This document shows positions 53,543-64,000 of a stretch of DNA of 64,000 nt, one piece after another (the stretch's first letter is position 1; each line of letters starts with the position of its first letter). The position numbers were made by a program, and so were the translations under genes. Origin of the DNA: Planctomycetaceae bacterium (GTDB lineage: Bacteria; Planctomycetota; Planctomycetia; Planctomycetales; Planctomycetaceae); assembly GCA_020426325.1 (NCBI GenBank), contig JAGQQG010000010.1, positions 27,086 through 91,085 on the forward strand, given 5' to 3'. The notes beneath the pieces were generated by a model that did not search any database, was not told the origin of the DNA, and saw only the letters and a list, made by a program, of their open reading frames with translations.

Positions 53543-54761
53543 ATGGTCTGTCAGTCGACGATTTTCGGGTAGAGTGATTTGAGTTTGATGCGGGCGTCGG
53601 CTGTTGTGAATTGCCAGTCGAAGCCGGTCTGTTGGTCGTTGCGAGCGGTCGTCCAGCCGGTCGCTTCGGTGCGGACGTGATTGATGTCGGGAAGTCGCCG
53701 ACCCAGACACTGACGACTCAACACGCTCAGTTCGCTTTCGGACGTGTTGAGCCAGCTGCCGTGCTTGGGGGTGTGGACCAGGTCGAGCTTGCCTGCCAGC
53801 CGGTGAGCCTCGTCGGGTTCGAAAGCTTTGTCGAACGAGGCCAGCTCGTGGGTGTTGAGTTGGTCGCACACCAGCGTGATCCGCCGGGCCTGTGCGAAGC
53901 GAGGGGCATCGACCAGATCTCGCACCTGCTGTGCCCAGTCGATGGCTGTCCTCCGCTCGCTCACGCGGACGTCGCGCCAGCCACCCAGCGGCTCGTTGAA
54001 CATCCACACGCAGCAGCAGCCATGACGGATGTATTCGTGGTCCTGCCGCGCGGGACGACCCGGACGGATCGGCAGCGGAGTCCGTCGTTCTTCGATCAGT
54101 TGTTTGGGCTGCTCATCCATGCACACTACCGGGTGCTGCGGATCATACGGGCGCTGGCACACATCCAGCACCCCTTCCATGTCGGCCACGAAGGCCGCGT
54201 CCGCCTGTGGAGGAATGCACCAATGCTCCTTCAGCCACGGTTTCACATCGTTTTTTTGAGCGTCTGCCGAACTGTCTCGTGACAGACCGACTCGACGATG
54301 TCCAGAGTCACCAGTTGATCGGCCAGCAGCCGCAGACTCCACCGCGAGCGTCCTTCCGGCGGTGTCGAACAGGCCAGCTTGACCAGTTCCGCTTCCGCTC
54401 GACCGTCGATCAGCGGTTCGAACTTCCGTTTCTGCGGTCGATGCGAGAGCGACTCCCTCGGCCCCACTTCACAGGCACGTTTCCGCCAGTTCTCAATACT
54501 CCGCGACGTCACCCCACCGACTCGGCCACATCGACATCCGCCCAGGCCGGTCCCTCTTCCCCCTGATCGGTCAACAACAGAGCCCGAGCACGCCGACACC
54601 TCACCGCCTTGTCCGCTCCTTTGCTCGCGATCGATTCCAATTCCACACGTTCTTCCGAGCTCAGCATCAACAAATACTTTTTGTTCACGGTTGCCCTCCC
54701 TGGACAAATCAAGTTCCTCCCCGGACTATAGCAACTCGAAAGAACACCACTGACAGACCAC
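53543..54761 (-). mobile_element. IS630-family insertion sequence with TA target duplication
   Basis: The transposase remnant is bounded by terminal repeats: ATGGTCTGTCAGT at 53543-53555 and its counterpart at 54749-54761 (12 of 13 bases match). Each end is flanked by TA (53541-53542 and 54762-54763), the target duplication characteristic of IS630/Tc1-type transposition. The total is 1,219 bp. The element separates the SDR gene from the HTH and recombinase genes. Confidence 0.9.
53551..54685 (-). pseudogene. IS630-family transposase, interrupted by two frame changes
   Basis: Three frames together give a complete IS630 transposase. The N-terminal part starts at GTG 54685 (GGAGGG upstream): NKKYLLMLSSEERVELES and CRRARALLLTDQGEEGPAW. 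Near a GGGG run (about 54515-54525) the sense moves by -1 into SIENWRKRACEVGPRESLSH and onward to HETVRQTLKK. At an A7 run (about 54251-54257) it moves by -1 again into NDVKPWLKEHWCIPP. The DDE residues are intact: VVCMDEQ, LVCDQLNTH and NTSESELS. The A7 shift could be programmed, as in some IS630 members; the G-run shift looks like a true mutation. The stop lies inside the terminal repeat. Confidence 0.85.
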
Positions 54762-56262: not shown

Positions 56263-56433
56263 GGCAACATCTCCTGTCCAAAGGGTTAGATGTTGTCTCG
56301 GCTCTCGTTCGGTGCAACGAACGGGGGCAATTTCTTACACCCTTCATAATATCACATCCGGCGTATAACCGGGCGTAAAGAGACAAGCCGCAAGTGAAAG
56401 AAAACGGCGTAATCCCTTAATAGATAAACACTT

Positions 56434-56507
<74 letters not shown>

Positions 56508-56512
56508 TTATT

Positions 56513-56703: not shown

Positions 56704-58299
56704 ATGTCCCGTATCCGCAACCACCCACTGCCCAAACCTGATAAACGAGGGCGTGTCAGGCCGCATGTCGGTGTCCGTTTAGACGGCTCGAAGGCCCGCA
56801 TCGACGTTGGGAACATCAAGACCGACGGGACGGCTGAGATGGAACGTCGGCTGCGACTCATCCGTCAGCTATACGAAAGGCTGAGTGAGCGAACTGCGGA
56901 AATCCAGCGTCGAGAGGGTATGCCTGAGAATGCGGCGTGGACAAAGTGGGCCTTTGAGATCGCCAAAAGGATTGGTCGTGGTGAACAGGTCACCGATGCA
57001 TTCGTCTCAGACCAGTTTTCTTCGCCGGTCGAATCTCCCACGTACACTGCGACGACCGTAGCTGGCGTCATCACTCAGCTCCGCTCTTGGGGTATCCCCG
57101 TGGTTGAAGGGGACAGCTACCAGCAAGGGCTGATTAACAATCATCAGCAAATCGAGCAGTTGGTCGCCGAGACGGTTCAGCGGCAACTAGCCGACCTGCG
57201 TTCACAACGGGGTGCGATTGTTGATCAGATTGCCCTTCCAGATCCAATGAATCTGGTGGAGGCCGCCACCTTCCACGACGCTATTGACGCCTTCAGCAAG
57301 TATCTCAAGGACACCGGCAAGAAGAACTCAGAAGGTAAGCTCACCAACACCATCTACACGAAGATTGATCTGGCTCAATCCATGAAGCGGCGGTATGAGG
57401 ATTTCCCGTTGCGTCATTTGACTCTCCCGAAATGGGAAGAACTGATCGCCTACTGGAGAAACCGGCCGCTCACGAAACGAAACACCCGTGGCAAGAAGGG
57501 CTGGTGTGAGGATGGGATCAAACTGCTGTTTAAGATGATCCGGTGGCTCGATACCAACCCGCATTTCAAATGGAAGAAGCCGAACGGGTTTGAGGACGTT
57601 GACCGCAAGATCATCGTCTTGCCAGAAGACCAGTTGCCGGAAGTCTTCCAGACGATTCGCAAGAAGACGTACTCACCGGAACAACTCGCAATCATCATGG
57701 GACACGTTGACGGCTATTGGAAAGCCATCATCGCCCTTTGTGTCAATTGTGCATTTGGTCAATCGGAGATCGGACAATGGAGGACATCTCACGTTGTCTT
57801 GCGGACGCCACATCCTCATGCCGAAAAGATCAATTGGAACACGAGCACCAACGATAGCTGGGTGGTCGGACCACGCCCCAAGACCGGTACTTATGGCGAG
57901 CATTTATTATGGAGCGAAGTCGCAGACTCCATCGAGCCACACCTGAGAGACCGAGAGTTTGTATTCGTCAACGGCGAGGAAAACCCGATGTGGATGACAC
58001 ACGCCAAGCGTCCGCAATCTCAGATCGACAATCGCTGGACAAACCTAATTAAGCGAATCCAGAAGGATGATCCAGACTTCCCGGCCCTCCCATTCGGAAG
58101 CCTGCGTGATGTTCTCCCGGACGTGCTACGTCGGGAGTACAGTGACGACATCGCCTCACTAGCGTTGCAGCACGGCACGTATTCCGAGGACAAACTACTG
58201 AAGTGCTATGCCAATTTTCCCTTCGCCCGTTTGTTTGAGAAGACGGTGGAGTTGCGGGATCACTTCCAACCAATGCTGGATGCGCTGGCTCGACCGTAA
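56704..58299 (+). CDS. tyrosine recombinase-like protein with variant active site
   Basis: A 531-residue protein related to planctomycete integrases. N-terminal: PDKRGRVRPHVGVRLDG and an extended helical region with LYERLSERTAEIQRR; core-binding domain about 180-300 (FHDAIDAFSKYLKDTGKK); catalytic domain about 310-531. The box I region reads N348-CAFGQSEIGQW with no Arg at the usual place; next comes GPRPKTGTYGEHLLW; box II has Arg468 in GSLRDVLPDVLRR with no His before it; Tyr502 in LLKCYANFPF is the candidate nucleophile. The frame is intact and starts 197 bp after tRNA-Arg, pointing away from it. It may be an active but divergent integrase, or an inactive relative. Confidence 0.7.
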   Translation: MSRIRNHPLPKPDKRGRVRPHVGVRLDGSKARIDVGNIKTDGTAEMERRLRLIRQLYERLSERTAEIQRREGMPENAAWTKWAFEIAKRIGRGEQVTDAFVSDQFSSPVESPTYTATTVAGVITQLRSWGIPVVEGDSYQQGLINNHQQIEQLVAETVQRQLADLRSQRGAIVDQIALPDPMNLVEAATFHDAIDAFSKYLKDTGKKNSEGKLTNTIYTKIDLAQSMKRRYEDFPLRHLTLPKWEELIAYWRNRPLTKRNTRGKKGWCEDGIKLLFKMIRWLDTNPHFKWKKPNGFEDVDRKIIVLPEDQLPEVFQTIRKKTYSPEQLAIIMGHVDGYWKAIIALCVNCAFGQSEIGQWRTSHVVLRTPHPHAEKINWNTSTNDSWVVGPRPKTGTYGEHLLWSEVADSIEPHLRDREFVFVNGEENPMWMTHAKRPQSQIDNRWTNLIKRIQKDDPDFPALPFGSLRDVLPDVLRREYSDDIASLALQHGTYSEDKLLKCYANFPFARLFEKTVELRDHFQPMLDALARP

Positions 58300-61024: not shown

Positions 61025-64000
61025 ATGACAACGACGACGCTTAGCGTGCCGGAGCAAGGTCAATTGGTTCAGGTGCGCTCCCGGCAGTGGGTCGTCAACA
61101 ACGTCAAACCCAGCAGTTTGCCATCGGACCCCCTGAAGCCCGAGATTGCTGGTCCACAGAATTTGCTCACCCTATCTTCGGTTGAAGACGACGGTCTCGG
61201 CGAAGAGCTACAGGTTGTCTGGGAGATCGAACCCGGTGCCCGAGTCATTGAGAAGGTCGCTCTGCCCGAACCGACTAGCTTTGACGACCCAGACAAGCTC
61301 GACGCCTTCCTCGATGCTGTTCGTTGGGGTGCAGCGTCCACCGCCGATCTGAAGAACATCCAGTCTCCTTTCCGCAGTGGTATCGAGATTGAAGACTACC
61401 AACTCGATCCCGTGGTTCGTGCGATCCAGATGCCGAGGGTCAACCTGCTGATCGCCGACGACGTGGGCCTCGGCAAGACCATCGAGGCGGGAATGGTCAC
61501 TCTTGAACTCATCATCCGGCACCGGGCCAGAAAGATTTTGATTGTTGTCCCGTCATCGCTTCAGATTCAGTGGCGGGACCAGATGCGTGACAAGTTTGGG
61601 CTGGAGTTCCGCATCGTAGACTCCGAACTGATGAGGGAACTCAGGCGGCGACGTGGCATCCATGTCAATCCGTGGAGCCATTTCCCTCGGCTTATCACCA
61701 GCATCGACTTTCTAAAGAGAGAGCGTCCACTTCGTTTGTTTCGTGAAACGCTACCTGCGCTGGGCGAGCCAATCTATCCACGCAAGTACGACCTCCTGAT
61801 TTGTGACGAGGCGCACAACTCTGCTCCATCGGGCCGAGGCAAGTATGCCACGGACTCGCTCCGTACCCAAGCTCTGAGGGAACTCGCCCCGCACTTCGAG
61901 CATAAGCTCTTCCTGACTGCCACGCCCCATAACGGCTACCGGGAGAGTTTCAGTGCCCTATTGGAACTGCTCGACAATCAGCGGTTTTCCCGTGGCACCG
62001 ATCCAGATCGCAAACAGCTTGAAGCGATCATGGTTCGTCGACTGAAGACTGATCCAACTTTCGCTAAGAAGTGGGACGGGACACCTCGCTTTCCGCCCCG
62101 TATTCTTGAATCCATCGAGGTGCCGTATACGGATGAGGAACGGGAAATTCATGCCGCACTTCGCCAGTATACGAAGCTGCGATCCGAACGGGCCGCAGAC
62201 AACACCGAGCGGTTCGCCACGGAGTTTGTGCTGAAGACGTTGAAAAAGCGGCTCTTCTCCAGCCCCGCTGCATTCCTCACCACGCTAGAACGTCATGAGG
62301 TGTCGCTGCGTTCTGCGAAGAAGAAGGTGGTTTCCAAGCCATCCATGAGCGTGCTTCAGCGTGAGTTCGACCGAATGGAAGAGGAGTACGCCGACGACTT
62401 CGAGTACGACGAGGCGACCGCCGACGCTCTCGACTCGGCCACCCGCCTGTTCGTTGAACCGACCGAACAGGAAACTGCGTTGGTGAAACAGATGAAACAA
62501 TGGGCCGACCGTGCCCGTGCCCAGCAGGACTCGAAGGCCAAGCAATTGATTCAATGGCTCAAAGAGAACGTAAAGCCGGGAGGCAAATGGTCGAACGAGC
62601 GGGTCATTATCTTCACTGAATACCGGGCCACGCAGAACTGGCTGCAAGAGGTGCTGGCCACGGAGGGTTTCAGCGGTGGCGATCGACTGCTGACGATGTA
62701 TGGTGGAATGGACAGTGACCAGCGAGAGGCGGTCAAGGCGGCCTTCCAGACATCACCAGATGTCAGCCCTGTCCGCATCCTGCTGGCGACGGATGCCGCT
62801 TCTGAAGGTCTCGACTTCCAGAACTTCTGTTCCCGGCTTATCCACTACGAGATTCCGTGGAATCCCAACCGGATGGAGCAGCGCAACGGTCGTGTTGACC
62901 GCCACGGTCAGAAGGCAGACAAGGTTCTCGTCTATCACTTCGTTGGCGACGGCTACAGGGAACGGGCAAATCGGCAGTTCAGCGGCCACGCCTCGGATAT
63001 GGAGGCCGACCTTGAGTTCCTGATGCGAGTCGCCCAAAAGATTGAGACGATTCGTGAGGACCTTGGGAAAGTCGGGCCAGTCATCGCCCAGCAGGTTGAA
63101 GAGGCCATGCTGGGCCGACGCACGACCCTGCACACCGAAGACGCCGAGCTGGAAGCCCAGCCGATCCGCAAGATGCTCCGGTTCGAGAGAGATCTGCAAA
63201 AACAGGTGCAGGCGCTCATGGAGCAGTATCGGGAAACACGTCGGGAACTGCGGCTCTCCCCGGACAACATTACAAAGGTTGTTACGGTTGCACTCGGGTT
63301 GGCCGGACAACCTGCACTCATCCCGGCCAAGACCGAGGATGGCAAAACCTGTTTCCAGTTGCCTCCGCTTCGTGGAAGCTGGGCGGCGTGCGCCGAGGGA
63401 CTTGAGCATCCCCATACCAAAGAGATTCGCCCGATCACTTTCAACGAGTCGGTCAGCAAAGGCCGAGACGACGTAGTTCTGGTCCATCTCAATCATCGCC
63501 TGCCCCAGATGTGCCTACGGCTATTGCGTGCCGAGGTGTGGGCCGAGAAGGGTCGGTCGAAGCTACAGAGGGTGGCGGCCCGAGTCATTCCCAACGACAT
63601 CATCGATACGCCAGCGATCATCGCCCATGCCCGACTCGTTGTGATCGGGGGCGACAGCTATCGACTCCACGAAGAGATCATCGCTGCCGGTGGCCTCGTC
63701 AAAGAAGGCAAGTGGGGCAGCCGTCTGAACGTGGGGCAGATCGATGCGGCGCTGGCGGCGGCAACAGATCAAGAGCCGTCGTCGTCTGTGAAGGTCAAAC
63801 TACTGGAACTTTATGCCAACCTTGTGCCGTCGCTCGCCTCCGCTCTCGAAGCACGCATGAAGGATCGTGTTGGTGGCTTAGAGAAGCGACTGGCTGAACG
63901 TGCCGACAAGGAAGCCAAGGACATCACGGCGATTCTGACCGAACTCAAAAAGGCCATCGAGTCAGAACTAGACTCTCCGTACTACCAGCAATTGACCCTG
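61025..64000 (+). CDS. drmD: DISARM class 1 SNF2-like helicase DrmD (3' end outside window)
   Basis: Anti-phage defence helicase; the frame is open for 992 codons from ATG 61025 to the window edge. The N-terminal part reads GQLVQVRSRQWVVNNVKP and LSSVEDDGLGEELQVVWEIE, characteristic of DrmD. SNF2 motifs: Walker A DDVGLGKT with Lys151, DEAH at 261-264, motif III LTATPHNG. After a charged insertion the second RecA domain follows: VIIFTEYRATQNWL, LLATDAASEGLDFQ and motif VI QRNGRVDRHGQ (619 onward). A C-terminal helical region rich in Glu/Arg (EKRLAERADKEAKDI) runs off the end. In class 1 systems drmD is grouped with drmMI, drmA, drmB and drmC; none is visible here. It lies in a recombinase-bounded accessory region. 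Confidence 0.82.
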   Translation, partial: MTTTTLSVPEQGQLVQVRSRQWVVNNVKPSSLPSDPLKPEIAGPQNLLTLSSVEDDGLGEELQVVWEIEPGARVIEKVALPEPTSFDDPDKLDAFLDAVRWGAASTADLKNIQSPFRSGIEIEDYQLDPVVRAIQMPRVNLLIADDVGLGKTIEAGMVTLELIIRHRARKILIVVPSSLQIQWRDQMRDKFGLEFRIVDSELMRELRRRRGIHVNPWSHFPRLITSIDFLKRERPLRLFRETLPALGEPIYPRKYDLLICDEAHNSAPSGRGKYATDSLRTQALRELAPHFEHKLFLTATPHNGYRESFSALLELLDNQRFSRGTDPDRKQLEAIMVRRLKTDPTFAKKWDGTPRFPPRILESIEVPYTDEEREIHAALRQYTKLRSERAADNTERFATEFVLKTLKKRLFSSPAAFLTTLERHEVSLRSAKKKVVSKPSMSVLQREFDRMEEEYADDFEYDEATADALDSATRLFVEPTEQETALVKQMKQWADRARAQQDSKAKQLIQWLKENVKPGGKWSNERVIIFTEYRATQNWLQEVLATEGFSGGDRLLTMYGGMDSDQREAVKAAFQTSPDVSPVRILLATDAASEGLDFQNFCSRLIHYEIPWNPNRMEQRNGRVDRHGQKADKVLVYHFVGDGYRERANRQFSGHASDMEADLEFLMRVAQKIETIREDLGKVGPVIAQQVEEAMLGRRTTLHTEDAELEAQPIRKMLRFERDLQKQVQALMEQYRETRRELRLSPDNITKVVTVALGLAGQPALIPAKTEDGKTCFQLPPLRGSWAACAEGLEHPHTKEIRPITFNESVSKGRDDVVLVHLNHRLPQMCLRLLRAEVWAEKGRSKLQRVAARVIPNDIIDTPAIIAHARLVVIGGDSYRLHEEIIAAGGLVKEGKWGSRLNVGQIDAALAAATDQEPSSSVKVKLLELYANLVPSLASALEARMKDRVGGLEKRLAERADKEAKDITAILTELKKAIESELDSPYYQQLTL

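Follow-up and report, generated by a model that had tools for sequence, protein, structure and literature searches.

The 64,000-bp stretch of DNA analyzed in this study (the window) was taken from the genome assembly GCA_020426325.1 of Planctomycetaceae bacterium, in which it occupies positions 27086-91085 of contig JAGQQG010000010.1 (C11; 91,085 bases). We confirmed that its last part, positions 61025-64000, encodes DrmD, the marker helicase of the class 1 DISARM defence system. On the reading that we prefer, which we consider evenly balanced between right and wrong, the window ends in the drmD gene of a likely class 1 DISARM locus, the rest of which is probably carried by contig C143 of the same assembly, where a predicted nuclease and its partner would supply the DNA cutting. 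The features at the window end are as follows:

61025..64000, + strand: drmD, encoding the SNF2-family helicase of class 1 DISARM; 992 codons are present, the 3′ end being truncated where the contig stops
61460..61480, + strand: ATP-binding motif DVGLGKT of drmD (residue 146)
61805..61816, + strand: DEAH motif of drmD (residue 261)
62882..62911, + strand: C-terminal helicase motif RNGRVDRHGQ of drmD (residue 620)

A first-pass annotation of this DNA had described an uninterrupted SNF2 helicase frame over the last 3 kb, and this was borne out: the frame runs on the + strand from the ATG at 61025 to the last base of the window with no stop in 992 codons, and the residues quoted in that annotation are present. 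Two further helicase motifs, LTATPHN and IFTEYRA, were found at residues 297 and 529, respectively. The frame is open-ended at 64000 because C11 ends there; judged against relatives of 1,049-1,054 amino acids (aa), approximately 60 residues of DrmD are missing.

Comparison with profiles upheld the earlier assignment of the frame to DrmD rather than to a RapA-type helicase. The NCBIfam model NF038317 (DISARM_DrmD) gave 1291.8 bits (cut-off 610) over positions 2-961 of its 1021, and the PADLOC DrmD model PDLC02621 gave 1352.6 bits. The next-best PADLOC model, PDLC02572 (1175.4 bits), is labelled DrmA; we take it to be a DrmD-type model, since it does not recognize the DrmA of L008, an 85%-identical relative, whereas ten other PADLOC DrmA models do. 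Three other identities were rejected: the RapA and DpdE equivalog models remained below their own cut-offs (160.3 bits against 576, and 189.7 bits against 500), and the PADLOC BREX helicase models reached 263.3 bits, compared with 1352.6 bits for DrmD.

In order to localize the rest of the operon, the genome was searched with the DrmMI and DrmA proteins of L008, as named by PADLOC. Each query gave one match, and both matches were located on C143, a contig of 3,512 bp that starts within drmMI and ends within drmA:

C143 (L106) 2-304: end of drmMI, 80% identity to DrmMI of L008
C143 406-828: p140, a predicted tandem winged-helix protein
C143 866-1666: PD-(D/E)xK-type nuclease, 266 aa, PADLOC candidate PDC-M15A
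C143 1659-2219: partner of 186 aa
C143 2212-3510: start of drmA, 73% identity to DrmA of L008

The partner gene shares 8 bp with the nuclease gene and another 8 bp with drmA. Of DrmMI, C143 encodes the last 100 residues only (PADLOC DrmMI, E 3.1e-28), the catalytic part being absent from the assembly, while DrmA is represented by its first approximately 430 residues, which match both the PADLOC DrmA model (E 1.6e-76) and the solved Serratia DrmA 7s9v (E 4.7e-72). The tetranucleotide make-up of C143 is compatible with that of the window (correlation 0.852; 0.769-0.951 for same-size pieces of the window). The genome contains one full-length DrmD match of this type plus three weak ones; among the latter, the listed match covers a short segment (E 3.9e-6).

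Relatives carry drmB and drmC downstream of drmA, with drmC placed behind drmB in L108, L179 and L181. DrmB was not found in our assembly, which breaks before drmB, and a search of the assembly for DrmC revealed only a 25%-identical phospholipase D (PLD) protein on C99. The earlier prediction that a class 1 DISARM locus starts at the window edge was supported: of the four genes named there as a check, two are represented in the genome, drmMI by its end and drmA by its start, on a contig unjoined to the window, while the assembly yielded neither DrmB nor DrmC. That the genome carries a class 1 DISARM is well supported, and we infer the link between C11 and C143.

The reading frame of p140 is open from base 286 of C143 (L106 286-408), i.e. 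ahead of the drmMI stop at 302-304, and an N-terminal segment similar to the tail of DrmMI is common among p140 homologues. The exact start of p140 is uncertain, and the protein may be made as a fusion. We considered, but do not claim, that a frameshift joins DrmMI to p140 on C143.

The nuclease matches component A of the PADLOC candidate PDC-M15 weakly (E 2.3e-6). In the alignment of its family, an aspartate or glutamate at position 88, E106 and K108 are present in 110 of 110 proteins, with a spacing that we take to be the motif of the PD-(D/E)xK superfamily. No relative of the family was found among PDB sequences at E up to 1, and a Foldseek comparison found nothing at E below 0.001. From the motifs, the PADLOC match and a second structural look, a PD-(D/E)xK fold is predicted, and the protein would be a DNA-cleaving enzyme. 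For the 186-aa partner, PADLOC gave no match at E up to 1. A profile of the partner recognizes the neighbouring gene of the L121 nuclease (E 8.2e-19) and, as a weak match, that of the L118 nuclease (E 3.3e-5). Among the 392 genomes sampled from the same phylum, 8 others encode relatives of the nuclease, and their available flanks showed no DISARM core gene. A same-strand open reading frame (ORF) of 189-245 aa follows the PDC-M15A-like nuclease in seven of these eight (L116-L122), and the two genes may form a candidate stand-alone defence unit.

We identified p140 beside DISARM genes in five genomes, in four of which the next gene is readable. The four loci other than that on C143 have the following gene order:

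Rhodopirellula sp. SM50 (L004/L110): drmMI, p140, Mrr-type nuclease (E 1.2e-8), 400-aa protein, drmA
G032 (L179): end of p140, DUF6602 protein (E 4.8e-18), drmA, drmB (MZB, E 2.1e-10), drmC (PLDc_2, E 2.5e-20)
G508 (L178): end of drmD, drmMI, p140, contig end
G061, the metagenome-assembled genome OFTM264 (L181): DrmMI frame with p140 as its C-terminal part, AAA_15/AAA_21 protein, drmA, drmB, drmC

The gene following p140 is thus different in each of the four readable loci (the PDC-M15A pair, the Mrr nuclease, the DUF6602 protein and an OLD-like ATPase), and in all four it appears to encode a nuclease or a nuclease-like protein, the DUF6602 and OLD-like proteins being the less certain two. The AAA_15/AAA_21 protein of L181 gave an OLD-like TOPRIM match of 19.4 bits, below the cut-off of 23.2. 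In the DUF6602 protein a possible nuclease-like motif (EIDLLVID ... AIIEVK) was read by eye, and no family search assigns it; a literature search on DUF6602 found no paper. In OFTM264, drmC is followed by a second SNF2 helicase (L181 9362-12478), approximately 33% identical to DrmD in the helicase parts.

To see how widespread such insertions are, we analyzed the best 80 of 206 DrmD loci from one scan, whose DrmD proteins show 58-87% identity in the best segment and whose hosts are planctomycetes, cyanobacteria, Chloroflexi and others. A gap was measured only if the retrieved sequence included both of its flanking genes, which was so at 61, 20 and 13 loci for the three intervals; the drmMI-drmA count excludes 14 loci in which drmMI is complete and drmA is out of reach. 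A gap of more than 250 bp was observed between drmD and drmMI in 36/61 loci, between drmMI and drmA in 13/20 and between drmA and drmB in 0/13 (Fisher p-values of 7.4e-5 and 1.6e-4, which ignore shared ancestry). Insertion is thus associated with either side of drmMI and spares the interval between drmA and drmB. Passages of a study of the Serratia system report that the products of the latter two genes form a complex (PMC9142583).

ORFs of at least 120 aa within the gaps are mostly in the sense orientation (40 sense to 5 antisense between drmD and drmMI, 25 to 6 between drmMI and drmA), and these 65 sense ORFs fall into 49 sequence clusters. Loci with a sense ORF of at least 100 aa in the gap number 31/61 and 10/20, respectively, fewer than those with a gap. 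Pfam matches were tallied for the first 25 of 44 families (drmD-drmMI) and the first 25 of 53 (drmMI-drmA), with the matching member unspecified and nucleases uncounted. Among the matches listed are PLDc_2, NgoFVII, PDDEXK_3, Exo_endo_phos, GmrSD, YhaV, Fic, nSTAND1, CHAT and Peptidase_U49 in the drmD-drmMI gap, and Mrr, XisH, UvrD, AAA_21, DUF4365, Macro, ParE and an IS200-type transposase in the drmMI-drmA gap. In L037 and L067 the drmMI match is in two pieces approximately 400-500 bp apart, possibly reflecting an insertion or an inserted domain.

In the scheme that we propose, DrmMI would mark the host DNA by adenine methylation, thereby protecting the host, and the DrmA-DrmB complex would load on unmarked DNA ends and unwind them, as was shown for the Serratia system (PMC9142583). 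DrmD is likely to act as a second motor alongside DrmAB. The p140 protein would probably tether the exchangeable enzyme of the slot to the DNA or to the methylase, possibly helped by the 186-aa partner, and the slot enzyme is likely to cut phage DNA. We infer each functional step of this scheme, as well as the C11-C143 link and the fold and activity of the nuclease. A broader proposal, which we put forward as a speculation and think unlikely to hold, is that class 1 DISARM is a modular chassis in which p140, located at the methylase end and in some cases fused to it, serves as an adaptor docking exchangeable nucleases from a fixed slot before drmA, and that the missing effectors that degrade DNA are these nucleases and not DrmC.

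Several observations weigh against these proposals. When the last 200 bases of the window were compared with the contigs in search of a physical join to C143, only the self match was obtained. The p140 gene is rare (22/392 genomes at E 0.001 or better, mostly as weak matches inside long frames; 7/170 in the family sample at E 1e-6), and p140-like genes of G354 (beside an Eco57I/TaqI_C methylase) and G093 have no DISARM core in the visible stretch. Conversely, L074 carries cargo ahead of drmA and p140 is absent, and in L008 there is no insertion between drmMI and drmA, two genes of 135 and 227 aa being placed between drmD and drmMI. The missing join, together with the fragmentation of the assembly (424 contigs) and its estimated contamination of 3.3%, might indicate a binning error, in which case C143 would come from another locus or organism and the window would hold drmD alone, with an unknown continuation. 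We consider this highly improbable, since the full-length DrmD, the DrmMI fragment and the DrmA fragment are each single in the genome and all are cut by contig ends, and the tetranucleotide correlation of C143 lies within the range of the window.

A less remote alternative, possible although we lean against it, is that the drmMI flanks are merely a tolerated insertion spot, and that the slot genes are independent defence modules which share the transcript and stand outside the DISARM mechanism. The cargo found in the census is indeed very mixed (toxin-type, peptidase, STAND and IS200-transposase matches among those listed, and 65 ORFs in 49 clusters), the nuclease has relatives in flanks where no DISARM core gene was detected, and L008 lacks an insertion before drmA, all of which speaks for passengers. 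Such independence is less readily reconciled with the coupling of the C143 cassette to drmA by the 8-bp overlap, the predominance of sense ORFs in the gaps, the fusion of p140 to DrmMI in L181, and the presence of a nuclease or nuclease-like gene after p140 in all readable loci. The nested pair might also be a guard that stays inactive as long as DISARM functions and strikes, possibly at the host itself, once a phage blocks DISARM. PrrC, which sits inside a type I restriction system, is a precedent for such an arrangement. The 186-aa protein could restrain the nuclease, and genes of abortive type occupy the slot in L181 (OLD-like AAA/TOPRIM) and, among the matches listed, the census gaps (Fic, YhaV, nSTAND1, CHAT). 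No regulatory or inhibitory feature was seen, and there is no tested link of the pair to DISARM inhibition; we regard a guard role as quite unlikely.

DrmD scored above the cut-off in 30 of the 392 sampled genomes. The four other genomes of the same genus contain distant DrmD matches only (best E 3.5e-67, 37% identity, in a genome 72% complete), which suggests that drmD was acquired horizontally. A different operon order was observed in L040 and L041, where drmMI lies approximately 4 kb upstream of drmD, rather than downstream, and drmA and drmB closely follow drmD.

The window upstream of drmD was also analyzed. A gene of 531 aa is located at 56704-58299 (+ strand), beside the tRNA-Arg gene at 56433-56508. 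Searches of Pfam, NCBIfam, PADLOC and PDB sequences gave no match for its product; in the C-terminal part, a resemblance to a degenerate tyrosine recombinase was noted by eye only. Between this gene and drmD lie genes for an acetyltransferase, a methyltransferase, a cupin and a hydrolase-like protein (the last just below the cut-off). PADLOC, applied to two of the five genes upstream of drmD plus one further upstream, gave no match. The terminal 12 to 30 bases of the tRNA-Arg gene are not repeated exactly elsewhere in the window, and a repeat scan revealed short two-copy families only. The proposal of a defence island following a tRNA-anchored recombinase is thus unsupported on the visible side. 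Further upstream, a pair of overlapping ORFs at 53551-54707 (− strand), which contain HTH_32 and DDE_3 domains, resembles a transposase gene of the IS630 type split over two frames.

A slot holding different nuclease-type genes beside the methylase would provide named candidates for the DNA-cutting step of DISARM, and an example of one defence operon acting as a platform for others; even if the slot genes are mere passengers, the drmMI flanks would still be a productive place for finding new defence genes. What is added here is the recurring slot beside the methylase, a winged-helix marker that can be fused to DrmMI, and varied effector-type genes, although we do not claim that these are absent from print.

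The locus shares with known class 1 DISARM systems (DrmD, DrmMI, DrmA, DrmB, DrmC; e.g. Serratia sp. SCBI) a DrmD, a DrmMI end and a DrmA start that match the family models. It differs in the genes for the tandem winged-helix protein, the PD-(D/E)xK-type nuclease and its partner between drmMI and drmA on C143, and in the absence of drmB and drmC from the assembly. For the Serratia system, passages of PMC9142583 describe DrmAB as activated by 5′-overhang DNA, with higher ATPase activity on unmethylated DNA, and DrmC as dispensable, often missing and not co-purifying; they call nuclease recruitment a mystery, leave the route of DNA degradation open and propose mix-and-match with other components. 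A 2026 review (PMC12904381) counts DISARM in one passage among systems whose restriction mechanism is unknown, and gives DNA cleavage in its table.

The C143 nuclease and its stand-alone relatives match component A of PDC-M15 weakly, as noted above, but the 186-aa partner has no PADLOC match and the pair lies here within a DISARM operon. Passages of a preprint on the YprA family (PMC12458937) describe ARMADA, BRIGADE and TALON as YprA-type helicase systems, some with PD-(D/E)xK nucleases, and a BrxHII/RapA-like helicase and a methylase as common to ARMADA and class 1 DISARM. The nuclease is fused to the helicase, downstream or nearby in those systems, whereas here it is encoded directly upstream of a DISARM-type drmA. 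The preprint assigns DrmC to DISARM, and its main text contains no DrmD, DrmMI or 'accessory'. A precedent for the arrangement is ShdA, an RmuC-domain protein of which, according to passages of PMC10270631, approximately 70 homologues are embedded in DISARM-like operons of Pseudomonas. In both cases a defence gene with stand-alone relatives is placed inside a DISARM-like operon; that report is confined to Pseudomonas and one gene family, while here varied families are found before drmA, with p140 as the marker.
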